Position numbers and translations under genes: made by a program
Notes under the pieces: generated by a model
What the model saw: the letters and a program-made list of their open reading frames with translations, nothing else
The model's database searches: none
What the model was told of the DNA's origin: nothing
Shown here: positions 597 to 39,967 of the stretch, in pieces
Layout of the letters: each line of letters starts with the position of its first letter
How positions within the stretch are numbered: the stretch's first letter is position 1
Assembly: GCA_947586185.1 (NCBI GenBank)
Contig: CANPXN010000005.1
Span: 1-64,000 of the forward strand
Origin: an uncultured Clostridia bacterium
GTDB lineage: Bacteria > Bacillota > Clostridia > Oscillospirales > Ruminococcaceae
Direction: 5' to 3'
DNA: 64,000 nt

Positions 597-1137
597 AACC
601 CCTTTCTATCAGATATTTTCTTACTTTGACCTTAGCTCTGTAAAGCTTTGTCTTGCAATTTGAAAGCGTAAGTCCAGATTCTGCGGCTATAGGTTCAAGC
701 TTTTCACCGTAAAAATAATGCCGGATAAATATTTCCCTTTCCTCAGGCTTTAAAAGCTCCCTGGCCGCGCTGACTATTTCCCTTGTGGTTTCCATAATAT
801 CAAGCTGCTGCTGAAAGTCACTGCCGTCCGGAATCATATCAAGCAGCTCGTCATATGACAGATCTGCTCTGAGCTTTCTAAGCTTGTTTTTTGACTGATT
901 CCGAACAATCGCCGCTATATAGGGACTCAGCTCGCAGTCCTCCCGAAGCCCTGAGGCATTGCTCCAAAGAGAAACAAAGCTGTCGCTGACGATCTCCTCC
1001 ACATCTTCCTTCTGCATGTATGAACCAATGATATTCATAGCAATTGTATAGGCATATGCAGTGTATTTATCCATTATTTTTGAAAGTGCTTTTTCATCCC
1101 CTGATTTAAGCTTATTTATCAAACGTTTGTCATTCAA
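577..1137 (-). CDS. ECF-type RNA polymerase sigma factor
   Basis: This 186-residue protein has sigma region 2 (about 10-80, with the DVEEIVSDSFVSLW helix) and sigma region 4 (about 120-180, a helix-turn-helix around AAESGLTLSNCKTKLYRAK). It has no region 1 or 3, the usual ECF build. It should direct RNA polymerase to a small regulon, probably including its own operon. The start is a TTG at 1135-1137 with GGAGG seven bases upstream; the nearby ATG is out of frame. Its 3' end overlaps the membrane protein gene downstream. The subfamily cannot be assigned by eye. Confidence 0.88.
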   Translation of the reverse strand: MNDKRLINKLKSGDEKALSKIMDKYTAYAYTIAMNIIGSYMQKEDVEEIVSDSFVSLWSNASGLREDCELSPYIAAIVRNQSKNKLRKLRADLSYDELLDMIPDGSDFQQQLDIMETTREIVSAARELLKPEEREIFIRHYFYGEKLEPIAAESGLTLSNCKTKLYRAKVKVRKYLIERGYDCYEK

Positions 1138-1170
1138 GCCAGCACCTCCGTTCTGTCGGCTTTCACTAAT

Positions 1171-1199
1171 ATATACACAGGGAATTTAAAAAGGTTACA
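1171..1199 (-). promoter_or_regulatory. Candidate ECF-type promoter of the sigma operon
   Basis: On the minus strand a TGTAACC box (1193-1199), 16 bases and then GTATAT (1171-1176) precede the sigma gene. The AACC-type -35 is typical of ECF-dependent, often autoregulated, promoters. No good housekeeping promoter was seen here. Inference only. Confidence 0.4.
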
Positions 1200-1269
1200 C
1201 CGATACAAAAATTTTATCACAAAGTCTTTCACAAATCAACAGCTGCACGTTGACTTTCACTAAGTATTA

Positions 1270-1298
1270 TTGACATTAAAGAAAAAATATGGTATGAT
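1270..1298 (+). promoter_or_regulatory. Housekeeping promoter
   Basis: TTGACA (1270-1275) and TATGAT (1293-1298) with a 17-base spacer lie 32 bases upstream of the ATG at 1330. Confidence 0.85.
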
Positions 1299-1329
1299 AT
1301 ATACAAAAAGCATGAAAAGGGAGGACAAT

Positions 1330-4300
1330 ATGAAACTTAAACGAATAATAACAACGTTCATATCAGCAGTAACCCTGCTGGCATGTATGCCGCTGGACGC
1401 CTTAGCGGCTCAGACTCCGGAGGATGAATTATCCCAGACCGGATTTCTCGAAAACGACCTGTCCGTTAACGGAACGAACTCTTTCGGAAATCTCCTTGCG
1501 GACGAATTTAACGGAGAATATTCTAAACAGCAGAAAAACAACGGCTGCAACGTTTTCTCCGCTGAGGTAACTGACAAAACCGTTTCAGTGGAATTTGAAA
1601 CGACTAAGGGAGGTACTCTCCTTGCTGCAATTTATGACGAAGCCGGCGAACAGATGCTTGCGTCCGGCACCGCCGAGGTAGCAAAGGGAGAAACCACCAA
1701 GGAAATAGTTATCGAAACAGATACTATGCCGCAGTATTTTTATCTGCGAGTGTTCCTTGTGGACGCACTCACCCTGCGCCCGTTGTGTACGGCATACGAA
1801 TCGCCGAACTACACCTAGGAGATGCAGGAATTTTTCGCAAAAACAGTTGACGACTTCGCTCCGGAAAGGGTTCTGAACCTTGACGAAAACAAGGCCAATA
1901 ACTTTGCGGTATACGGCGAAAATACTATCACTGCTAAATCAACAGGCGAAGTCAATAAGGTTGTATCTGCTGACGAGAGCACAAGAACCTACGTAATAGA
2001 AAACCCTGACAGTACTGTCGCAGGATTGCAGAATGGTAACATTTTAGCCTGTGAGCAGGAAAACATGGAAGTCCTGATAGTCAAGGTAGAATCTATCGAA
2101 ATCAGCGGAAATACTGCAACTATCACAGGTCAGGACACCTCCATGGAGGACGTTTTTGAGTATGCGAAAATTGACGCAAGTCAGGGTATCGCTGATGCAG
2201 ATATCGACAGCTCAAACCTTGGGGAGGGCGTTACATACAACGGTGCGGTAAGCGACGAAGAACCGGCTCAGGCATATTCGTCGGAAAGCTCCGACATCTC
2301 GGAGTACCACTATCTGCCGACAGGCCCGACATTAAATGGAAACGAGGTTTCCGGCACGCTTTCCGTACCGATTTCTTACACGTTTCTTGAAAAGCAAATC
2401 GGAGACGATGAATGCAACGCTAAGCTAAGCGGAGATGTGAAGCTTTCAATGGAAGCCAGCGTAAAGCTGTATCTTTCCTGGACATATCAATATGTTGAGG
2501 TCAGATTTGACTACGGCTTATCAGCCAGCATTACGCTGTCAGGAAGCATATCCGACTCAGTTCCCCTTGCACCGGCTTGCTTCTCGCCTGTTCCGGGACT
2601 TTACATATCATTGACACCTTCATTTATTTTAGAGGTAAGTGCGAAAATAACCTTTGAGGGAACTCTTAAGGGAACAGCAGGTTTCCATGTTTCAACTGAA
2701 ATAGGATACAATTCCCTGACCTCAACGCCTTCATTGGATTTTGACACCACTATTGATGGAACGGTATTCATTGGAGTATCCCTCAAGCCTGCAATAACTG
2801 TCATAAGCGAGCATATAGTTCAATTAAGCTTTGATGCAAAGGTAGGTGCAGAGATAAATGAAAAGCTTACCGGCGGTGAAAATGAAAATCTGAAAACACA
2901 CATCTGCAAGCATTGTATTAACGGAGATGTTTCGGCAAAGATAATTATTGAGGCAAAGGCAACGCTTCTAAAAAATAAAGAATTTAAATATGGATTAGAG
3001 TTTACTCTGAAGCTTTTGGACTTTTACAATTCCTTAGATCACCAAGAAAAAGGTATAGGAACATGCCCTTATTGGGGATATCATGTCACTGTAGAGGTTT
3101 TTGACAAAAACGGAAACCATATCAACAACGCAGCAATAAGCGATCCAAGCGGTAAATTCAGCGGCTCCACCGGCATTGACGGAACAGCTGACTTTTATGT
3201 TCCGGGAGGAACCTACACAATAACTGCGGCAATACATGGTAAAAAGAGGGCAAGAGAATTTACCGTAAACGGCAGTAAAAAAGTTACCATCAAAATAATG
3301 GACTACACTAATCCGACTAATCCAACTGACCCAACTGAGCCTACCACCGATCCAACAGAGCCGACCGACCCAACCGGTTCAACAAAGCAAACAACCGACA
3401 GTACAAATAAGAATAATTCAGTTAAGGTTAAGCAGCTAAGCGCAGGCAGCTGGCATTGTGGATGTATTGATGTTAATGGAAATCTTTATATGTGGGGACT
3501 TAACCAACAAGGTCAGCTTGGCAATGGCGATTTGACAATGGACGATAGCACAGTTCCAATAAAAATAATGGATAATGTTAAGTCTGTAAGTGTTGGATAT
3601 GACCACAGTGCAGCTATAACCGAAGACGGTAGCCTTTATATGTGGGGAGATAATGACTACGGTCAGCTTGGCAACGGGACAACAGAAAATAGCTATGTTC
3701 CTATAAAAATTATGGACAATGTAAAGGCGGTTAGTCTTAACAAGCACGGTTATACAAGCGCAGCCATAACCGAAGACGGCAGCCTTTATATGTGGGGAGT
3801 AAATCTATTCGGTCAGCTTGGTAACGGTGAAGACGGAAGCGGAATGAAAAACGGAGGTTTTGTATATGATCAATACACAAAAAAGAGCTCTGTTCCTATA
3901 AAGATAATGGATAACGTTAAATCCGTAAGCCTTGGTTATTCTCACAGTGCAGCTATAACAGAGGATGGAAGTCTTTATATGTGGGGAGATAATTGTAACG
4001 GCGAGCTTGGAAATGGCGAAAGCGGATACTATGAAAACAACTACAGTAAATTAAGTAATGTTCCTATTAAAATTATGGATAATGTTAAGTCTGTAAGCCT
4101 TGGATATTACCACAGCGGAGCTATAACCGAAGACGGAAGTCTTTATATGTGGGGAACAAATAGCTATGGTAAGCTTGGAAACAGTAAAATCGGATACCAA
4201 AGCACTGTACCTATAAAAATAATGGATAATGTTAAATCTATAAGTCTTGGCTATTGTCACAGCGGAGCTATAACCGAAGACGGAAGTCTTTATATGTGGG

Positions 4301-22029: not shown

Positions 22030-23235
22030 TTAATATACCGCAACAGTAAACTTAGGCGACTTAAGACCAAAATAACTTCTGAAATCGCTGCCCTTTACAG
22101 TTACCTGATTGTCGATAACAACATAAGCAGCATAGCCGCCGTCGCCCTCAACAACTGAAATCCATGATGAAGGATTTTCGGATAATGTAATTCCGAGTCT
22201 GCTCTGAAGAGTTGATCTTACATAATCAATGCTGTATGCAGTAACTGTGCCGTAATTCGGATCGCATGAACTGTCATACTCACTTGGAACACTTCTCAGA
22301 TAAGGCATATCCGCTGTGAATACATCCTTGCATGAAGCAGTGCTTCCGCCGCTTGACGCACAGAACATAGTCAGTGCATAATTTCCATTGTAGTAAACTG
22401 CCTGACCGAGTACCGATGCAACGCAGTTAACAACATTCTGCGGTGGGTTTGATTTAAGTCTTAAATCTCCTGCGCTGCCGCCCTTATACTTGATGTATGT
22501 ATATGCGGCAACCGCCTGGGCTTTCATAGCCTCCGGGCTCATTGAAGAACCCATTTCATTGTAAACTACCTTTGAAATAATATCAATGGCAGCTCCGGAT
22601 GTACCGTTTACCGTAAGAGTTTCATTGCCGCCGGTTCCTGTACTTCCGACTGTTGTGCCTGGATAGTAGTGCTGGAGGATCTGCTGATAATTCCAGCCTC
22701 CATAATAAGCATAGTAATTAGCTCCGTTCTGGCTCATGCCAACGCCATGACCGTAGCCGTATGTAGTGAAGCCGAAGTTTCCGCTTTCAACAGAAACGTT
22801 TGAAACCTCTCCACGCTGCGGAACGCTGACCGTTCCTTCATAGGTATAATCCGGGTCATAGGCATATTCAGCTGAATTATCGCCTTCGCTTTCCTCTCCG
22901 GACTCCTCCGAAGATTCCTCAGAAGCCTCTGAAGACTCCTCAGTTTCTTCTTCTTTTTCTTCTTCAACCTCAACGTTTTCGTAATCAACCATTGAGAAGC
23001 TGTCCTTGTATTCCGAAAGATCAGCCTTCCAGATACTTGCGATCTCATACTCCGCAGAACTCTCTGTTTCCTCGTAATCCTCTGCTGCAATAACAGAAGC
23101 TGAATCCGGAACTTCCTGTTCCTCAAGGGCAACGGCATTCTGAGCTGAATTTCCGTAGAATATACAGAACGCAGCAGCAAGCGCTGTTGCAGCAGCAGCT
23201 ATTCCGTAGCCTTTGTGTCGTACTCGTAAATCCAT
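22030..23235 (-). CDS. SpoIID/LytB-domain protein with permuted motif order
   Basis: This 401-residue protein has one N-terminal membrane segment (10-28), an acidic Glu/Ser linker (about 85-120), and a SpoIID domain. In SpoIID the GHGVGMSQxGA segment normally closes the domain. Here it comes first (162-172, with WNYQQILQHYYPG after it), and the usual N-terminal parts (VVYNEM at 223-228, EAMKAQAVAAYTY at 235-247, CASSGGSTASCKDVF, final FRSYFGLKSPKFTV) follow. SpoIID is a lytic transglycosylase on denuded glycan strands, so a peptidoglycan role is likely. The start is the ATG at 23235 with GGAG six bases upstream; an earlier in-frame TTG overlaps that site. Confidence 0.82.
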   Translation of the reverse strand: MDLRVRHKGYGIAAAATALAAAFCIFYGNSAQNAVALEEQEVPDSASVIAAEDYEETESSAEYEIASIWKADLSEYKDSFSMVDYENVEVEEEKEEETEESSEASEESSEESGEESEGDNSAEYAYDPDYTYEGTVSVPQRGEVSNVSVESGNFGFTTYGYGHGVGMSQNGANYYAYYGGWNYQQILQHYYPGTTVGSTGTGGNETLTVNGTSGAAIDIISKVVYNEMGSSMSPEAMKAQAVAAYTYIKYKGGSAGDLRLKSNPPQNVVNCVASVLGQAVYYNGNYALTMFCASSGGSTASCKDVFTADMPYLRSVPSEYDSSCDPNYGTVTAYSIDYVRSTLQSRLGITLSENPSSWISVVEGDGGYAAYVVIDNQVTVKGSDFRSYFGLKSPKFTVAVY

Positions 23236-23282
23236 ATCAATCTCCAATTTTAAATTTCCGCATTTGCTGCGGATGGAAGCCG

Positions 23283-24170
23283 TTATTCACCGGCTGTTTC
23301 CGAATCCTGACTCTCGTCGGATCCGCTGCTTTTTTTGTCAATCTTTTCTGGGGTCTCATCATCACGTAACCGTCTTGCAACTACGAGAAAACGTGAGTTA
23401 TCCACATCCAGATGACAGGTGGAAAGAGTCAGAAATTTGTCGCCGTACTGAACGTCAACATCAGTATTGCGCTGTGTTTTAGACTCAACCGTATCAATAA
23501 AGTAATTGTAGTCATCCTCTGTTTCAAAGTTGACAATATCCCAATAACGGAAGTCTGCATCCCACTCGCCGCTTGTGACAAAATAAGCGATAATAATATA
23601 TTGATAATCCTTATAATTTGAGCTGAACTCAATTATAGGATTTTCAGCATAAAAGCTTTCATCCTGGTAGTACTTTTTAAGATTACCGAACATTGCGCCG
23701 CTTCTCATATTGTGCCCGTAAACGCACAGATGGTCGCTGTGTTCCAGCGGATCCCCGTCGTAATTTGCTCTGTAATCAAGGAAAAGCGTACCGGAATCAA
23801 GGTAGTTGCCATAAAGGTCCTTATCGAGATAATAAGCGTTTCCGTTATCATCATCGTTTGGGTCCGGCCACTGAACGACCGGATAATCGACCTTTGTATT
23901 GCTGAGCTTCATATATCCCACAACGTCTTTATTCTGGGTCAGAAGATATCTTGAAAGACCTGTAAGGCCTCTCGGGTCTTCCGAAAAATTCTCAAGAGTC
24001 GGATACTCAGGCTCTGTCGGCTCTGTTACCTCTGTAGGCTCCAGCATGTCCGCAGCCTTATTTGATGAAGATTCTTTTTTATCTCCGCTGCATGAAACAA
24101 GCATACACACGGACATAGCAGCCGCCGCTATGCAGCCTACTATCGCAATAATTCCTTTATTCTTCAGCAT
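23283..24170 (-). CDS. Class B sortase, putative lipoprotein
   Basis: This 295-residue protein has an N-terminal hydrophobic stretch ending in a lipobox-like LVSC (Cys27), a Thr/Glu/Pro linker, then a class B sortase domain with catalytic His (CVYGHNM), Cys (LTLSTC) and Arg (NSRFLVVARR). It follows the CinA-sortase gene by 22 bases. Sortases attach surface proteins to the wall; a lipid-anchored sortase is unusual. The start chosen is ATG 24170, which begins a clear export signal; a longer frame overlaps the upstream gene and encodes an implausible Arg-rich leader. Confidence 0.82.
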   Translation of the reverse strand: MLKNKGIIAIVGCIAAAAMSVCMLVSCSGDKKESSSNKAADMLEPTEVTEPTEPEYPTLENFSEDPRGLTGLSRYLLTQNKDVVGYMKLSNTKVDYPVVQWPDPNDDDNGNAYYLDKDLYGNYLDSGTLFLDYRANYDGDPLEHSDHLCVYGHNMRSGAMFGNLKKYYQDESFYAENPIIEFSSNYKDYQYIIIAYFVTSGEWDADFRYWDIVNFETEDDYNYFIDTVESKTQRNTDVDVQYGDKFLTLSTCHLDVDNSRFLVVARRLRDDETPEKIDKKSSGSDESQDSETAGE

Positions 24171-24192: not shown

Positions 24193-25803
24193 TTATCCCA
24201 CGCCGTATGGCTCAAACTCAGCGTCAGGATCGTAATTGTTGTCGTTCCACTTATAATAAATCTCAGGCCATAAAATATTCGGATTCTTCTCTGTCTCCTG
24301 CGTTCCCTCATAAGGGTCCTCTCCGTCCCTTACAAGTCTTGCCATGACTATAAGGCGGGCGGTATCAAATTCACCGTTACAGGTTGAAAGGGTCAGCAGC
24401 TGATCCCCGTATTTTACGTCCACATCATTAAATGCAAGCGCTCTTCTCTTTGCATTATTGACATATTCATAGAACACTTCCTCATTATCAAAATTAAGGT
24501 AGTTCCAGCAATCGAATTTTGTATCCGATTCATCCTCCGAGTCAACGATAAAGTAAGCAAAAATCTTATATGTATACGTCTCATAATTAGAGCTTAAATT
24601 TATGACCGGATGCTTGCTGTAGAATGAGGAATCGTTCTTATAGTTTTTGAGCTGTCCGAACATTGAACCGTCGCCCATATTGTGACCATAGATGACCAGA
24701 TTCTGAGAGTTTTCCAGAACCTTTTTGCCGTCAACCACATAGTCGAAATAGTTGCGCCAGTCAAGGAAGATAGCTCCCGCTTTTGCATTCTCTTTATCAA
24801 TGTCCTTATTAAGATAATACTCATTGCCGTCCTCACGACGTCTTTGTAAAACAGGATAACTTACATTTGTGTCAGGTATATCTATATACCCCACAGTATC
24901 CTTATTTCTTTCAAGGAGCAGCTTTGCGCCCTCGTTCATAGTCCACTTCTTAACGCTTTCGGGAGTTCCTACATTTGCTTCTTCCCCCTCCGGCTCAGTG
25001 TTCATGGTAAGCGCTGTTCTGTACTGATCCTGAATCTCGCCGTATTTGTTCCTGCTCTTATAATTTGACCAGTAATAATCGGCTATAAGGTAAAGGCATA
25101 CGCTAAAGACAATTATCGCAACAAGAAAGATGACCTTTTTAACTGCCTGTAAAGGAGTATCGCCCCTCCACGGGATCAGCCCCTGAACAAAGCCCTGAAA
25201 GCCGCCCTTCTTTTTTCTTCCCGATGGCTTTTCTGATTCGGGAAGCTTGTCCGGCATTGCCGCAAGCATCTGATACAGAAAATCAAAAATACTGTATGCA
25301 GTATGCAGCCTTATGTTATCTCTGCTCTTGTCGCTCAGCTCCCACAGCTTCAGCAGCTTAACTATCTGCTTTGTGCCGCAACATACTCCGACATAAACGG
25401 TACCCACCGGTTTCTCAGCGGTGCCGCCCCCCGGTCCTGCGATACCGGTAACGGAGATACATATATCAGCCTGCGACTGTTTTTTCAGTCCTCTCACCAT
25501 AGCAAGAGCGACCTGGCGGCTTACCGCACCGTACTGCTTGAAAAGCGCTTTAGGAACTCCTAAGTATTCATGCTTGATCTTGTTTGAATATGTACAAACG
25601 CCGATCTCAAAAACTCTTGAAGCTCCCGGCACGGATGTAATAAGCTCTGAAAGAAGTCCTCCCGTACAGCTTTCAGCCGTAGCGACAGTTACTCCTTTTA
25701 CCAATAATAATTTTACTACATCTGTAACCAATTTGTCAAGATTTCCAGGGGTTACTTTGGTAGATTGTCCGATTTCACCCGAAGTATTATTCATATTTTC
25801 CAT
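24193..25803 (-). CDS. CinA/PncC amidase domain fused to a class B sortase
   Basis: This is a 536-residue protein. Residues about 20-180 are a CinA C-terminal (PncC, nicotinamide-nucleotide amidase) domain with ESCTGG (44-49) and GIAGPGGGTAEKPVGT intact. A basic linker (about 190-220) leads to one membrane helix (about 223-245), then an extracellular class B sortase domain with catalytic His (YGHNM, about 374), Cys (LSTC, about 475) and Arg (about 483). Topology fits: amidase inside, sortase outside. PncC recycles pyridine nucleotides by deamidating NMN. No frameshift or gap is seen at the junction. Start: ATG 25803, modest ribosome site (GGTGAAATT). Confidence 0.85.
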   Translation of the reverse strand: MENMNNTSGEIGQSTKVTPGNLDKLVTDVVKLLLVKGVTVATAESCTGGLLSELITSVPGASRVFEIGVCTYSNKIKHEYLGVPKALFKQYGAVSRQVALAMVRGLKKQSQADICISVTGIAGPGGGTAEKPVGTVYVGVCCGTKQIVKLLKLWELSDKSRDNIRLHTAYSIFDFLYQMLAAMPDKLPESEKPSGRKKKGGFQGFVQGLIPWRGDTPLQAVKKVIFLVAIIVFSVCLYLIADYYWSNYKSRNKYGEIQDQYRTALTMNTEPEGEEANVGTPESVKKWTMNEGAKLLLERNKDTVGYIDIPDTNVSYPVLQRRREDGNEYYLNKDIDKENAKAGAIFLDWRNYFDYVVDGKKVLENSQNLVIYGHNMGDGSMFGQLKNYKNDSSFYSKHPVINLSSNYETYTYKIFAYFIVDSEDESDTKFDCWNYLNFDNEEVFYEYVNNAKRRALAFNDVDVKYGDQLLTLSTCNGEFDTARLIVMARLVRDGEDPYEGTQETEKNPNILWPEIYYKWNDNNYDPDAEFEPYGVG

Positions 25804-25857: not shown

Positions 25858-27036
25858 TCACACCTCAAGATTGAAGACTTTCACTTCTGTTTTACGAACT
25901 GCTTCATCTATAAGCGCCGAAAAATCAAAGCAGCTCTGAGCGGCTTCAACATCCTCAAGCTTCGGTCTTACCTTAGGATGTCTCGGTGTAAATACCGTAC
26001 AGCAATCCTCATATGGCTGAATAGATGTTTCAAAGGTATCAATTTTTCTTGCGATCTCTATGATCTCAGTTTTATCCATACCTATAAGAGGTCTGAACAC
26101 CGGTATCCTGCAAACTGCGTCGGTACACATAAGGGCGTTCATGGTCTGACTTGCGACCTGCCCCACGCTTTCCCCTGTGATCAGCGCCATACACTGTTCC
26201 TTTTCGCATATCCTCTGAGCAATTTCCATCATAAGCCTTCTCATTATAATGGTAAAATACTCCTCCGGGCAATTGTTCCTGATAGCCTCCTGAATTTCGG
26301 TAAAAGGAACGCAAAAGAACGCAATACTTCCGCAGTAATCGGTTATTTTCTGACACAGCTCCTCGACCTTGAGTCTTGCTCTGTCCGAGGTGTAAGGAGG
26401 GCTCACATAGTGGATCGCCGTTATGTGGACTCCTCTTTTAGCCATCATATAGCCTGCAACGGGGCTGTCGATACCTCCTGAAAGAAGGAGCATAGCCTTT
26501 CCGCTTGTTCCGACCGGAAGACCGCCTGCGCCTTTCAGATTTTCAGCGTGGATATATGCGTGAGTATCTCTGATCTCAACAGTAACCGTTACCTCCGGCT
26601 CTTTAACGTCAACAGAAAGATTCGGAAACATTTCCAGCAGAACTCCTCCCAGCTGAGCGCATATTTCCGGCGATTTCATCGGGAAGCTCTTGTCCGCTCT
26701 TTTAGCGGTGACCTTAAAGGTCTTTGCATAAGAAAGAACCTCCTCAAGGTAATCCACACTTCTTTCGCATATTGCCTCAAAGCTCTTTTCACATGCAGCA
26801 GCACGGCACAGCGCCGCAATACCGAACACCTTTCCCAGTCTTTCCATAGCGGTATCCATATCTGCATCATCACTCAGCGGCTTGATGTATATTGTAGACT
26901 GAGCCTTGGCGTAATCAAAGCTCCCCAGTGACTTCAGTCTTCTCTTTATATTTTTAAGGAGAACATCCTCAAATGTCTTTTTGTTAAGACCCTTTAAAGC
27001 CATTTCTCCATACTTAACAAGTATAATTTCCTGCAT
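25858..27036 (-). CDS. thiI: tRNA 4-thiouridine synthase ThiI
   Basis: This 392-residue protein has a ferredoxin-like plus THUMP N-terminus (1-165) and a PP-loop ATPase domain with SGGIDSP (186-192). It lacks the rhodanese tail of enterobacterial ThiI, the usual Firmicute form, which relies on a cysteine desulfurase for sulfur. It makes s4U8 in tRNA and may feed thiazole synthesis. Start: ATG with GGGAACC upstream; weak spacing but the N-terminus is conserved (EIILVKYGEMALKGLN). Confidence 0.93.
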   Translation of the reverse strand: MQEIILVKYGEMALKGLNKKTFEDVLLKNIKRRLKSLGSFDYAKAQSTIYIKPLSDDADMDTAMERLGKVFGIAALCRAAACEKSFEAICERSVDYLEEVLSYAKTFKVTAKRADKSFPMKSPEICAQLGGVLLEMFPNLSVDVKEPEVTVTVEIRDTHAYIHAENLKGAGGLPVGTSGKAMLLLSGGIDSPVAGYMMAKRGVHITAIHYVSPPYTSDRARLKVEELCQKITDYCGSIAFFCVPFTEIQEAIRNNCPEEYFTIIMRRLMMEIAQRICEKEQCMALITGESVGQVASQTMNALMCTDAVCRIPVFRPLIGMDKTEIIEIARKIDTFETSIQPYEDCCTVFTPRHPKVRPKLEDVEAAQSCFDFSALIDEAVRKTEVKVFNLEV

Positions 27037-27912: not shown

Positions 27913-28014
27913 TGGCAAGATGTCCCCCACCTCTTAAGCTGGAGTCCATTTCCGTATTCAGTGCAGCTAAAGCCACACCCTGCCCACTTTTAATGACGGG
28001 ACAAGCCCCTTATT
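27913..28014. repeat. Dispersed repeat, copy A
   Basis: Blocks CCATTTCCGTATTCAGTG and TGACGGGACAAGCCCCTTA recur with changes at 61081-61176. This copy covers the last codons of the membrane protein gene at 27967-28917. Confidence 0.5.
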
Positions 28015-28917
28015 GAACAATTTATACTTATACTGCTGCCCCGGAAAGCAGTGTAACATATCCGCATAAAAGCTTTTCCTGACATACCCCGGAATGTAAA
28101 CAGAGGTTTTCCAAGAAACAGTCGTTGCAAATGAAGAACTTGTTGTAGACTCGGATGTAGAAAGCGATACCGAAACAGAAACAGACTGCGATACTGAAAC
28201 TGACACATCCACTGACACTGACACTGATACTGACACCGACACCGAACCAGTGTATGAAATATCGCTTTCAGATATATTAATAGAAATGTTTGTTGCATTG
28301 CTTTGCTCAGTCTCCGGAACATTTGTTACATCAACTGTTGAACCTTGTGTTGCTGGCATACTTTCCGTATTATGCTGAACACTACTGCTTTGTTCCGATT
28401 CCGGACCGGTAGTCTTCTGAGGTTGAGTATTAACAGAGCCGCCTACATCCACCGAAGTATTACTTACGCCGACCGTTGTATGTGAAGTATCCATGCCGGC
28501 ATTCTCCGGAGCGGTTGTTACAGAGGCTTCTGTTTCTCCATTTACGGTATGAGTTGAATCGGGAACTGTAATAACATCGGAGTTTTCGCCGGGTTCTATA
28601 GCGCTGTCATCGCTGCCGACAATCGGGTCAGTATTTCCCTCCGGACGGCTTTCAACCGAAACAGGAGGCTCATACATATCCGAAAGCCTGTGCATATCAG
28701 TAACATTCAGATAAATACTATATGTTCCGAAAAATGCCAGCACAGTGAGAGCTGCTGCCAAAAACCGCATGGTATTCGGAAAGTTGGAAATACGCTTTTT
28801 TCTCTCCTGTTTTTTATACTTCTCTTCCAGCTCCTGCAAAAACTCCTCCTTGCGTTTAGGATCTGGAATATTATATATATATGCGTCTTTCAAAGCTTTT
28901 TTAAACTTTTTATTCAT
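27967..28917 (-). CDS. Single-pass membrane protein coupled to an ECF sigma factor, Ser/Val repeat tail
   Basis: This 316-residue protein has a basic, helical cytoplasmic N-terminus (1-48), one membrane segment (about 51-70), then an extracellular Ser/Thr/Pro-rich region with an alternating Ser-Val stretch near 225-255. Start ATG overlaps the stop of the sigma gene, so expression is coupled. The layout matches RsgI-like or other transmembrane anti-sigma factors, but I recognise no domain. The last ~15 residues are encoded by a dispersed repeat, so the original C-terminus may be lost. The (ACTGAC)n coding stretch at 28195-28245 could change length in frame. Confidence 0.65.
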   Translation of the reverse strand: MNKKFKKALKDAYIYNIPDPKRKEEFLQELEEKYKKQERKKRISNFPNTMRFLAAALTVLAFFGTYSIYLNVTDMHRLSDMYEPPVSVESRPEGNTDPIVGSDDSAIEPGENSDVITVPDSTHTVNGETEASVTTAPENAGMDTSHTTVGVSNTSVDVGGSVNTQPQKTTGPESEQSSSVQHNTESMPATQGSTVDVTNVPETEQSNATNISINISESDISYTGSVSVSVSVSVSVDVSVSVSQSVSVSVSLSTSESTTSSSFATTVSWKTSVYIPGYVRKSFYADMLHCFPGQQYKYKLFNKGLVPSLKVGRVWL

Positions 28918-29375
28918 TCAGATCCCTCCTTTTCAAACTCACTTCGTAAAACAGCCAAAATCTTTTTAAGTCTCCGGTACAATGCAAATCTTGACATATG
29001 ATACAGATTGCTTATAACTGATACCGGAACTTCATTGACATACCTCAGCAAGACTATTTCCCTGTCCTCATCTGAGAGAGATTCCACTGCAAACCGCAGT
29101 GACAGCCTTGAGATCAGTTCGTCTTCAACATCGGTCTTGTTTTCATCAGCGCTATGAATAGGCTCAAATTTCTTTTTTCTGTACTCGTCAATACAAAGGT
29201 TTTTAGCGATTGTGTACAGATACTGAAGCTCCTTTCCGCTGCCGTTATACTGCGGATTCTCTAAAAACCGTAGGAAAGTTTCCTGAGTCAGATCTTCCGC
29301 AAGCTCTCTGTTATGTACCCGTGTATAGCAATAGCGGTAGATTTTATCATACTGATCTTCAAGACCGACCGGCAT
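28914..29375 (-). CDS. ECF-type RNA polymerase sigma factor
   Basis: This 153-residue protein has sigma region 2 (about 5-70, ELAEDLTQETFLRFLEN and LYTIAKNLCIDEYRKK) and region 4 (about 98-148, LSDEDREIVLLRYVNEVPVSVISNLYHMSRFALYRRLKKIL). It overlaps the downstream membrane protein gene by four bases. Start: ATG with GGGAGGG seven bases upstream. The first ~75 codons and all upstream control DNA are duplicated at 32016-32620. Confidence 0.9.
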   Translation of the reverse strand: MPVGLEDQYDKIYRYCYTRVHNRELAEDLTQETFLRFLENPQYNGSGKELQYLYTIAKNLCIDEYRKKKFEPIHSADENKTDVEDELISRLSLRFAVESLSDEDREIVLLRYVNEVPVSVISNLYHMSRFALYRRLKKILAVLRSEFEKEGSE

Positions 29376-29662: not shown

Positions 29663-30643
29663 TCACTTCATATAACTTGCTTTATAAAGAGTGAATATCT
29701 TAGATGCATCAGCGGCAGTAATCTTGCCGTCACCGTTCATATCTGCGCTCTTTAACTGGAGGTCAGTGAAGCTGCCCTTTCCATTTATGTATATCTGCTT
29801 GTATTCGGAAAACGCCATTGAAGCGTCATGGGCGGAAGCCTTTCCGTCACCGTCTATATCACCTACAACATAAGGCTCGTCGGCATAATAAACCATTGGG
29901 CAATATGTCGCTTCGACCCACATCTCCAGCTCAGCCTTGTTTTCTATTGAGGAGAAGGTATTGATCTTATCCCTTACCGCAAAAATATCTGATGGCTGCT
30001 CCAAATCTATGCCTGTAATTCCCCATATCGGATATGCTTCAGTGCCTAACTCCGTGTTTATTTCCGGATCAGCGCCAATGGTTTCCAGATAGTTCCACAG
30101 CTCAGTATCGCTTTTTATTTCCTCCAGATCAAGTGCTCCGCTCCCCGGCAAACGTATATAAGCGCTGCCTTTGTATTTACTGATGCTTCCGTTATTGAAT
30201 GAATATCTTTTGAATATTCTTGCGGATTTGACGCCGTCAGTCTTGCGAATCTGGCTCAACAGTTCATTCATCTCGTCGATCTTTTCATCTGTAACTGTTT
30301 CGTATGAGCAAACAACAAAGCAGTGTGTGTTGTCAGTGAGAGTTACAAGCTGAGGAGCACCGTCAAGGATCTCATAATCACAGTTAATAGTGCTTGTATC
30401 AAAGCCGTCCTCCGTTATAAATTCTATGCCCAGGTCATATGGGTATCGTCTGATTCTTATTGCGCTGCTATCTCTATTATCAACAAAATAAATGACCCCG
30501 TCATTGTCGATAACCTTTGCTTCATAATCATAAGTGCTGATATCCTCTGAAAAATGCAGCTCGCCTGCAAATGCCGTTATATTGCATGCAGCCATAACTG
30601 CCGCCGCTAAGACAGCGGCTAAAATTGATTTGAGTTTTCTCAT
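29663..30643 (-). CDS. Secreted dockerin protein of unknown function
   Basis: This 326-residue protein has a signal peptide (cut near AFA-GEL), a roughly 220-residue domain I do not recognise and a C-terminal dockerin (DIDGDGKASAHDASMAFSEY and DMNGDGKITAADASKIFTLY). It is 42 bases after the protease gene and shares its promoter. The dockerin 3' end is within the 605-bp duplication and nearly identical to that of the giant LRR protein. Start: ATG with AAGGAGG upstream. Confidence 0.82.
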   Translation of the reverse strand: MRKLKSILAAVLAAAVMAACNITAFAGELHFSEDISTYDYEAKVIDNDGVIYFVDNRDSSAIRIRRYPYDLGIEFITEDGFDTSTINCDYEILDGAPQLVTLTDNTHCFVVCSYETVTDEKIDEMNELLSQIRKTDGVKSARIFKRYSFNNGSISKYKGSAYIRLPGSGALDLEEIKSDTELWNYLETIGADPEINTELGTEAYPIWGITGIDLEQPSDIFAVRDKINTFSSIENKAELEMWVEATYCPMVYYADEPYVVGDIDGDGKASAHDASMAFSEYKQIYINGKGSFTDLQLKSADMNGDGKITAADASKIFTLYKASYMK

Positions 30644-30685: not shown

Positions 30686-31843
30686 TTAATGCAAAAATGG
30701 ATTGAATGCTAAAAATCTTGTTACAGACCAACGCATATCGACTCCATTAGATGTATACTGACCATCTGAATATGCACTGGAACCTATTATTCCTATTGCA
30801 AATTCATTTCCGCCAGCTGTCATAATCATTGGTCCGCCGCTCATTCCGCCTTGAGCCTGTGCGTAACAATAAAACAATTTATTATTGTTATTAAAAACGT
30901 TTCCAAATGAGTGGTACATTTTCACATCGCTGTATTCATATCCGCCGCTCAATCCTCTTAGTTCAACATCAGGTCGTGCGCTTTCTCCGATTGTTGCTAA
31001 ATAAATTCGACCATATGTATCAGCAAGGCTTATATCATCATCTACAGTTAATAACGCATAATCAACAGTGTTTTCTTCGTCTGGATTCGGATTTTTCTCC
31101 ATTCGTATTTCTGAAACGTGAACAGAGTCAGCATAGAATTCCTTTACTGCATGTGATGCTCTGTCGAAGATTTGAATTCTTACGCTTTGAGGGAAAATCT
31201 TATTTCCATTTTCATCTGTTCCAACTACGTTATGTGCAGCAGTTGCTAAGCAGCTTTTGCCGTCCCAATCCTGGATAATAAATGCTGAGCCACCAATAAA
31301 ATTAGTTCCGTCATATGTTATTAATAGTCTTACAACGCTTTGATCATATGATGTCATTTCGCTTAAGGTATTACCTGAACCGCTTTCTGATGATAAGATA
31401 TCAAAAGTGTTTTCGGTTCTTATATCACCAAAATTTCTTGTGTCTTCCATAATAACATTTTGTGTCATATCTATGTTGTTTTCATTACTTATTACATCTT
31501 CATTATTTGATATAATCGATGATGTATTATTGCTTTCAAAAGATATGCTACTTAAATCGATATATGCCTGATTAATTATTTTGGGAGATAAATTTTGACT
31601 TTGTGAATTTCTTGCTGAAGAATTTCTTTGTGAATTTCCATTAATATCAATTTCGATGTAACCTTCAAGTGAACTATCTGATGACAAACAATATTCCTTT
31701 GTTTTTCCGGTTGCAAAAAAATATGAGTAATAATAATTTTCATAAACTTCATCGAAAACACTGTCAGCGCTTACATAGCTTAAAATATTTATTGATGCAA
31801 TAAACGCTGCGATAATACCTGCTAATGTCTTTTTAATATTCAT
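30686..31843 (-). CDS. Secreted chymotrypsin-fold serine protease
   Basis: This 385-residue protein has a signal peptide (ending YVSADS), an Asn/Ser-rich propeptide-like region (about 60-165), then an S1/V8-like protease domain with the triad His (LATAAHNV), Asp (VDYALLTV) and Ser (QGGMSGGPM). It has no dockerin. Base composition is more A+T-rich than its neighbours and it sits between the two copies of the 605-bp duplication, suggesting insertion or transfer. It is co-transcribed with the dockerin gene downstream. Start: ATG with AAGGAG upstream. Confidence 0.85.
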   Translation of the reverse strand: MNIKKTLAGIIAAFIASINILSYVSADSVFDEVYENYYYSYFFATGKTKEYCLSSDSSLEGYIEIDINGNSQRNSSARNSQSQNLSPKIINQAYIDLSSISFESNNTSSIISNNEDVISNENNIDMTQNVIMEDTRNFGDIRTENTFDILSSESGSGNTLSEMTSYDQSVVRLLITYDGTNFIGGSAFIIQDWDGKSCLATAAHNVVGTDENGNKIFPQSVRIQIFDRASHAVKEFYADSVHVSEIRMEKNPNPDEENTVDYALLTVDDDISLADTYGRIYLATIGESARPDVELRGLSGGYEYSDVKMYHSFGNVFNNNNKLFYCYAQAQGGMSGGPMIMTAGGNEFAIGIIGSSAYSDGQYTSNGVDMRWSVTRFLAFNPFLH

Positions 31844-38992: not shown

Positions 38993-39967
38993 TTATTTAA
39001 GGAAGAACTGTGACCAATGATATACATACATACATTCGCTATTGTAATAATAGCCTACTCCTATTTTTGTAAATTCAGGATTCATAATATTAGCTCTGTG
39101 TCCTTCTGAGTTCATCCAGCCCTCAACTACGCTTTCAGGTGTGATATAGCCTGCCGCAATATTTTCTCCTGCTGCCTTGTAGTTGATACCAAGTTCATCA
39201 AGAAGAGAGAAACAATCTCTGCCGTCAGGTCTTGTATGTGAAAACATCTTTGATGCTTCCTTAGCTCTTATAAGAGCTGCGTCAGTTGCATTCATATCAA
39301 GTGTAAGAGGAGCGATTCCGTTCTTTGCACGTTCAATATTCACAAGTCTTACAACCTCTTTAGCTTCATATGAGAAATCATCTTCGCCATAAACCGCACC
39401 GGAAAATCTGTATCTTGCAGTATCGTATTTATAAAGCTCCTTTGCATAACTGAAAACATATGAAGCGTCCTTTGCATTAAGTTCTTTACTTCCTGCTGCA
39501 TTCTGATCGCTGTCAACATTTGCTGCAAAGAGTCCACGCTCGCTGAGACTTGAGCTGCCCGTCTTGTAAAGCTTTTTGTATTCGCTGAAAATCAGCGCTG
39601 AGTCAGCAGAGCTTACCTTACCGTCCTCGTTAACGTCGCCTCTCAGAACTACATCCACCGGAATCTCAGCAACGGTATTTCCGTTAACTATAATTCCAAC
39701 TTCCGAAACGCTGTTTGAAGCCTTGCTGTAAACCTGTGAAGGATCAGTTGAAAATTCATAACCTGTAACTTCTTTTCCAGAAGCATCAGTCAGCTTTATA
39801 GCATTTCTTGGAAATTCAGTGCAGTCGCTGTAGCACATAACTGCGCTGCCGCTGTATTCAACATTGTAATCAGAATCTATTGATTTTGCATATGCCGGAA
39901 ATGTTACCTGCAATGCTGCAATCGCTGTAATCAAACCTGAAAAAAATCTTTTAGAAATGTGTTTCAT
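38993..39967 (-). CDS. Secreted CAP/SCP-domain protein with internal dockerin
   Basis: This 324-residue protein has a signal peptide (cut after AYA), a short N-terminal domain (30-105), a dockerin in the middle (about 108-180) and a C-terminal CAP domain (about 200-322) with the conserved FSHTRPDGRDCFSLL, AGENIAAGY and WMNSEGHRANIMNPEF motifs. The second dockerin loop is expanded (NVDSDQNAAGSKELNAKDAS) compared with the standard 12 residues. CAP proteins bind lipids or act as secreted effectors. It shares its dockerin style with the gene at 40215. Start: ATG with GGGAGGA upstream. Confidence 0.87.
   Translation of the reverse strand: MKHISKRFFSGLITAIAALQVTFPAYAKSIDSDYNVEYSGSAVMCYSDCTEFPRNAIKLTDASGKEVTGYEFSTDPSQVYSKASNSVSEVGIIVNGNTVAEIPVDVVLRGDVNEDGKVSSADSALIFSEYKKLYKTGSSSLSERGLFAANVDSDQNAAGSKELNAKDASYVFSYAKELYKYDTARYRFSGAVYGEDDFSYEAKEVVRLVNIERAKNGIAPLTLDMNATDAALIRAKEASKMFSHTRPDGRDCFSLLDELGINYKAAGENIAAGYITPESVVEGWMNSEGHRANIMNPEFTKIGVGYYYNSECMYVYHWSQFFLK

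Follow-up and report, generated by a model that had tools for sequence, protein, structure and literature searches.

A 64,000-nucleotide stretch of DNA from an uncultured, Ruminococcus-like gut bacterium of the Clostridia (referred to below as the window) carries one open reading frame in which an enzyme domain of NAD recycling is followed by a sortase. The locus raises the question of whether such a chain is genuine, how it came about, and whether its two halves work together or merely side by side.

Architecture and integrity of the fused gene

The gene and its parts are located in the window as follows.

24193..25803, minus strand: fused gene, CinA_C/PncC domain, transmembrane helix and class B sortase, 536 aa (reading frame, profiles, fold matches, genus conservation)
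25264..25734, minus strand: CinA_C/PncC (NMN deamidase) domain, residues 24-180 (profiles, active-site alignment)
25186..25260, minus strand: basic, poorly conserved linker, residues 182-206 (genus alignment; predicted disorder at 187-203)
25072..25146, minus strand: single transmembrane helix, residues about 220-244 (hydrophobicity, conservation, modelled helix 217-266)
24331..24885, minus strand: class B sortase catalytic domain, residues 307-491, with His374, Cys475 and Arg483 (profiles, fold)

The frame is initiated by ATG and runs through 536 codons without an internal stop. The Pfam CinA profile PF02464 was matched at residues 24-180 (E 1.8e-48, score 164.6 against a cut-off of 23.5) and the Sortase profile PF04203 at residues 307-491 (E 5e-16), while the MoCF/COG1058 and KH domains were absent from the window protein in the Pfam search. 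The NCBIfam cut-offs were passed for both TIGR00199, PncC_domain (134.7 against 68.9), and TIGR03064, class B sortase (168.9 against 153.75). The AlphaFold2 model, built from 15 related sequences, has a mean pLDDT of 79 and contains two confident domains joined by a long helix (217-266), with low confidence at residues 1-14, 187-203 and 268-283. In Foldseek, the CinA half was superimposed on the solved CinA 2a9s with a TMt of 0.90 and an rmsd of 1.8, and the sortase half on the solved SrtB structures 2oqw and 4lfd with a TMt of 0.87-0.88. By all of the sequence and model comparisons run, the protein is an ordinary member of both known families.

The active sites are in agreement with these assignments. 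The set of NMN-site residues listed in PMC3855486 and PMC4246079 was aligned with the Agrobacterium and Thermus CinA proteins; E44, S45, T47, S62, Y72, K77, T119, R165 and the conserved glycines are kept in the CinA half, and the tested columns read ESTGSYKTGGR in the window and in every same-genus copy. Roles have been described for Lys-301, Thr-340, Tyr-296 and Arg-377 of Thermus CinA (PMC4246079), and the fused protein has both the residue proposed as general base and the threonine that partners it. A PF02464 search of the whole genome returned the fused domain as its only CinA_C, which rules out that the CinA half is a second, spare copy; this domain is therefore predicted to be the cell's only NMN deamidase, converting NMN to NaMN. 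In the sortase half, His374 lies in YGHN and Cys475 in TLSTC, with Arg483 completing the site, and this half is likewise predicted to cleave and transpeptidate a sorting signal.

Residues ~220-244 form the only strongly hydrophobic stretch of the protein, and they are preceded by a K/R-rich stretch (GRKKK; seven K/R against one D/E) and by a juxtamembrane motif, PW(K/R)GD, which reads PWRGD in the window protein. Since a single hydrophobic stretch with basic residues ahead of it predicts an inside N-terminus, the CinA half would be cytosolic and the sortase extracellular. The first-pass annotation, which had described an intact PncC-type amidase and an intact class B sortase in one continuous frame with a topology suited to both, is borne out by the agreement of curated cut-offs, active sites and folds and, as far as topology can be predicted, by these membrane signals.

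The same annotation had named an assembly error at about 25,150-25,250 as one finding that would undo its reading. Eleven genomes of the genus, the window's included, were compared. The fusion occupies one open frame in all nine other genomes that hold the whole gene, with 63-73% protein identity to the window, and in the tenth relative (G003) the contig ends inside the fused gene. Mean identity within the genus is 86% for CinA_C, the best conserved part of the protein, 74% for the sortase, 47% for the linker and 29% for the stalk. An assembly or sequencing artefact joining two genes has nothing in its favour except the odd combination, and it is scarcely credible when ten genus genomes (the window and nine others) carry the fusion with a conserved membrane helix and both domains; independent assemblies and conservation together exclude an error at this junction.

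Gene neighbourhood and recurrent joining in the order

The fused gene is a member of a conserved cluster, thiI-cinA-srtB-srtB2-spoIID, whose other parts in the window are listed below.

25858..27036, minus strand: thiI, upstream neighbour across a 54-bp gap (profiles; same neighbour in relatives)
23283..24170, minus strand: srtB2, another class B sortase, separated from the fusion by 22 bp on its downstream side (profiles; N-terminus)
22030..23247, minus strand: SpoIID/LytB-domain protein, the last conserved cluster member (profiles; domain circularly permuted)

The order thiI-cinA-srtB-spoIID, with one to four srtB copies, recurs throughout the family, and some members of the order's other families have it too. 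The nearest named relative, Ruminococcus flavefaciens, shares the corresponding cluster thiI-cinA-srtB-srtB2-spoIID, but its cinA (184-189 aa) and srtB (frames of 505-663 aa) are separate adjacent genes, and its SrtB has a long, low-complexity, apparently disordered N-terminal tail where the window protein has CinA. Other near relatives likewise keep cinA and srtB side by side and separate in this cluster. The possibility, also raised earlier, that the genes are separate in all close relatives is accordingly wrong within the genus, where they are fused, and right for R. flavefaciens. In still other close relatives (L036-L038, G028 and G396) the sortases have no adjoining cinA, and whole-genome search found no CinA_C anywhere in G028 or G396. 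Many unfused cinA/srtB neighbours share one frame with a single stop between them, but no weight is placed on their frequency, as the choice of loci favoured such cases.

Several features of the neighbouring genes were observed in passing. The N-terminus of srtB2 reads as a lipoprotein signal in the window (MLVSC), and signals of this type (e.g., MLVSC, MTGC, ATGC) were found in most genus members (L004-L008, L010, L013 and L020), whereas srtB2 of L002, L003 and R. flavefaciens apparently has a membrane helix instead; a lipid-anchored sortase would be unusual. The SpoIID domain is permuted, its C-terminal GYGHGVGMSQ...HYYPG motif (profile 183-240) standing ahead of the N-terminal part (profile 1-189), in the window and in L021-L039, L063, L073, L144, L145 and L165. 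Permutation is seen in this genus and in R. flavefaciens, with seemingly separate cases in G011 and f24/g142; the domain order is normal in other lineages. One Ruminococcus sortase (L036, 5515-6972) has a cytosolic tail of QNPYQQ/NQQYQ repeats in the place of CinA. Elsewhere in the window, cellulosome-type parts lie near the fusion: a dockerin protein at 29663-30643, a trypsin-like protein at 30686-31843 and, at 38993-39967 (minus strand), a CAP/YkwD protein that matches dockerin weakly. A low-complexity SVSVSVS repeat protein at 27967-28917 (minus strand) adjoins a sigma-factor-like gene at 28914-29375.

An architecture search for the two domains in one chain, conducted in 394 genomes of the order, returned open-frame matches spanning both halves in families f1 (the window's), f4, f15, f23 and f24; among 398 genomes spread over the phylum, the window alone was matched across both halves. 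Two candidates were rejected: the long CinA frame of G749 (884 aa) is just CinA, a stop and then the following gene, which shares its frame, and G543 carries an ordinary CinA. Three forms can be distinguished. The CinA_C-sortase form is present in the window's genus, G058 and G050; the MoCF-KH-CinA_C-sortase form in G011, G032, G039, G063, G071, G081, G182 and G373; and MoCF-KH-CinA_C-sortase-SpoIID in one chain in G333, G419, G023 and G026. The proteins of the last form (L045, L048, L065 and L066) are single chains of 1046-1159 aa containing MoCF, KH, CinA_C, a membrane helix, sortase and SpoIID.

For the fused state, the tree of 69 ThiI proteins requires seven changes, at least three of them forced by strong branches; with the 148 sortase domains the number is 12, at least seven of them forced, although these counts do not separate gain from loss and the sortase tree is of a quick kind with some long branches and with one contig-cut copy (L011) counted as single. 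The fused genus is placed beside srtB1 of R. flavefaciens on the sortase tree and within a set of lineages with unfused adjacent genes on the thiI tree. The fused members of the window's genus stand together, and on either tree the lineages closest to them (R. flavefaciens and G036) are unfused, so that an independent fusion in this genus is the best reading. CinA-sortase joins have arisen several times in the order from neighbouring genes; the union of an NAD-recycling enzyme with a wall-anchoring enzyme in one chain is a recurrent habit in the evolution of one order and no one-off accident.

Fate of the two halves and readings of the fusion

A PF02464 search of 42 whole genomes was compared with the table of active sites. 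An intact fused CinA_C is the sole CinA_C of its genome in 19 of 19 genomes, and an intact CinA is encoded elsewhere in all 15 genomes in which the linked CinA_C is decayed or missing (G014, G031, G148, G194, G255, G261, G275, G280, G286, G333, G338, G350, G401, G402 and G413), with the reservation that the genomes behind both counts are related and are not independent trials, and that G350, with an ordinary short sortase beside thiI, may never have been fused. The fused sortases that lack the catalytic His and Cys (L048, L065, L066 and L101) are accompanied by another sortase gene in four of four genomes. This pattern is the expected one if each half, kept for its own reaction, decays in place once a spare exists. 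Each half looks to be retained for its own chemistry, judging from these sequence patterns, and this is an argument against control of the sortase by a sensor of NMN or energy.

The fusion is nevertheless retained in several cases of decay. It outlives loss of the CinA site in L045, L133 and L101, the last being an 899-aa MoCF-CinA-sortase protein (genome G255, ORF 736-3435) in which the CinA site and the sortase His and Cys are both lost while the architecture is kept. Sortases seemingly without a CinA part still carry a weak, degenerate MoCF-like N-terminus (hhalign probability 96.8, E 2.6e-10). The persistence of dead CinA or sortase halves, and of both in G255, suggests a non-catalytic role of the fold in those lineages.

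The explanation that we consider fairly probable is fusion of neighbouring genes into a membrane-tethered two-enzyme protein whose halves most likely act as independent catalysts. In the ancestor of the genus, a single-domain pncC/cinA and the srtB behind it in the thiI-cinA-srtB-spoIID cluster would have come into one frame; because the N-terminus of SrtB was already cytosolic, the added CinA_C would have stayed inside, where as the sole PncC it would deamidate NMN to NaMN for NAD recycling. Outside, the sortase would attach proteins to peptidoglycan, probably through SPKTG-type signals such as that of a cohesin-bearing ScaE-like anchor. The two enzymes would be tethered in one place and made in a fixed ratio, presumably without coupling of their activities.

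One set of observations counts against independence: fusion that recurs, and a neighbourhood preserved for so long in several families, exceed what unrelated enzymes would be expected to show. Independence explains neither the frequent keeping and fusing of this neighbourhood nor the dead halves, and to that extent the CinA fold might serve a structural purpose. As a cytosolic module, the fold could dimerise and thereby bring sortases (and SpoIID) together or position them at the membrane, deamidation being of secondary importance; the dimeric Thermus CinA structure (PMC4246079), the recurrence of the fusion, its survival of CinA-site decay and the MoCF remnant on sortases without CinA_C are consistent with such a role. 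We hold it possible but rather unlikely, because the genus of the window retains a complete NMN site in the best conserved part of the protein, decay is confined to genomes with another CinA, as relaxed selection predicts, and the same sortase occurs free of CinA in R. flavefaciens and others. The first-pass suggestion that the CinA part was repurposed finds no support in the window protein, whose tested NMN-site residues are all kept and whose genome has no other CinA_C; it may still apply to lineages in which the fused CinA is dead. A bolder proposal, which we regard as unlikely, is that CinA-like folds form in this order the cytosolic base of a membrane complex that modifies the wall and combines a sortase with a SpoIID-type peptidoglycan enzyme. 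On this view the NAD-recycling family would have been drawn upon several times for the inner part of an envelope machine, in some lineages when catalysis had already been lost.

The remaining readings concern the joint between the halves. The whole fusion might be translated and then cut in the linker (~182-206), or the sortase might also be made from an internal start, giving two proteins in either case; a short, variable linker of basic character, for which disorder is predicted, would suit this course. The genus alignment contains no conserved cleavage motif, however, and the two in-frame ATGs between the CinA_C and sortase domains lack a Shine-Dalgarno-like sequence ahead of them, which makes it improbable. 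Regulatory coupling, in which the CinA half senses the NMN or NAD state and controls the sortase across the membrane, could draw on the two intact sites in the window chain and on the recurrence of neighbourhood and fusion across families. It is very improbable given the single-pass helix with its variable linker and stalk, the relatives in which the would-be sensor or output is catalytically dead although the fusion is kept, and the many relatives in which the proteins are separate. The earlier idea that wall assembly is coupled to the energy state of the cell finds no footing in a protein whose linker and stalk vary far more than its two domains and in whose related fusions either half dies alone.

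The graded thiI-cinA-srtB-spoIID fusions provide a natural series, from separate genes through two-part and four-part chains to chains with one or both sites dead, in which it can be asked whether the joining of neighbouring genes is merely tolerated or benefits the envelope. They also call for caution in annotation, as a 'CinA' or 'sortase' label in this order may cover half a protein or a dead domain.

Candidate substrate and relation to known systems

A 234-aa protein encoded on the window's contig (G000:C5:90341-91042; L183, L194) contains a cohesin domain (PF00963, over the cut-off) and ends in SPKTG followed by a hydrophobic stretch and a basic tail. Full-length relatives were found in 8 of 11 genus genomes, the window's included, and the protein ends in SPKTG in the five genus genomes whose C-terminus was recognised by the pattern. 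Because SPKTG is cleaved by C. difficile SrtB (PMC4155245) and the ScaE cohesin protein of R. flavefaciens is sortase-anchored (PMC4081043), the ScaE-like anchor is the most plausible substrate of the fused sortase, though with four other sortase genes in the window's assembly the pairing is a guess. Sorting signals were sought by family search, so that the list is a lower bound. Sortase and LPXTG/SPKTG clusters also lie on contigs C30 and C34 of the same assembly (L191, L192), which may be foreign (1.26% contamination); their signals were left out for this reason, and the SPKTG-cohesin protein of the fusion's own contig was used. If a SrtB of the window type does anchor cellulosomes, this bears on how fibre-degrading gut bacteria hold their enzymes.

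CinA is known to be occasionally fused to other domains, and in PMC3855486 such proteins were set aside, with sortase unmentioned. In the literature searched, with subscription journals and annotation databases outside its scope, the CinA-sortase fusion, its recurrence and its four-part form were not found, although they may be listed somewhere, and nothing relevant was met on a link between sortase and SpoIID. Both families are known; their combination, its recurrence and the four-part form may be new.

The CinA half has the fold and active-site residues of the PncC/CinA C-terminal domain (A. tumefaciens 2a9s, T. thermophilus CinA), but the usual PncC is soluble, whereas the window half is a single domain without MoCF and KH, carried on a membrane helix and a sortase. 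With the class B sortases (TIGR03064; S. aureus and C. difficile SrtB), the window protein shares the fold, the His-Cys-Arg site and an N-terminal membrane anchor with a cytosolic N-terminus; it differs in that its cytosolic tail is a whole enzyme domain and that its putative SPKTG signal is deduced from the genome alone. ScaE of R. flavefaciens offers a parallel for anchoring by a sortase (PMC4081043), srtB being only a candidate for the anchoring enzyme. A precedent for the chain itself is MoCF-KH-CinA, likewise a natural fusion around the PncC domain, in which both enzymes serve pyridine nucleotide recycling (PMC3680494, PMC4246079), whereas the partner in the window fusion would act outside the cell, in an unrelated chemistry.
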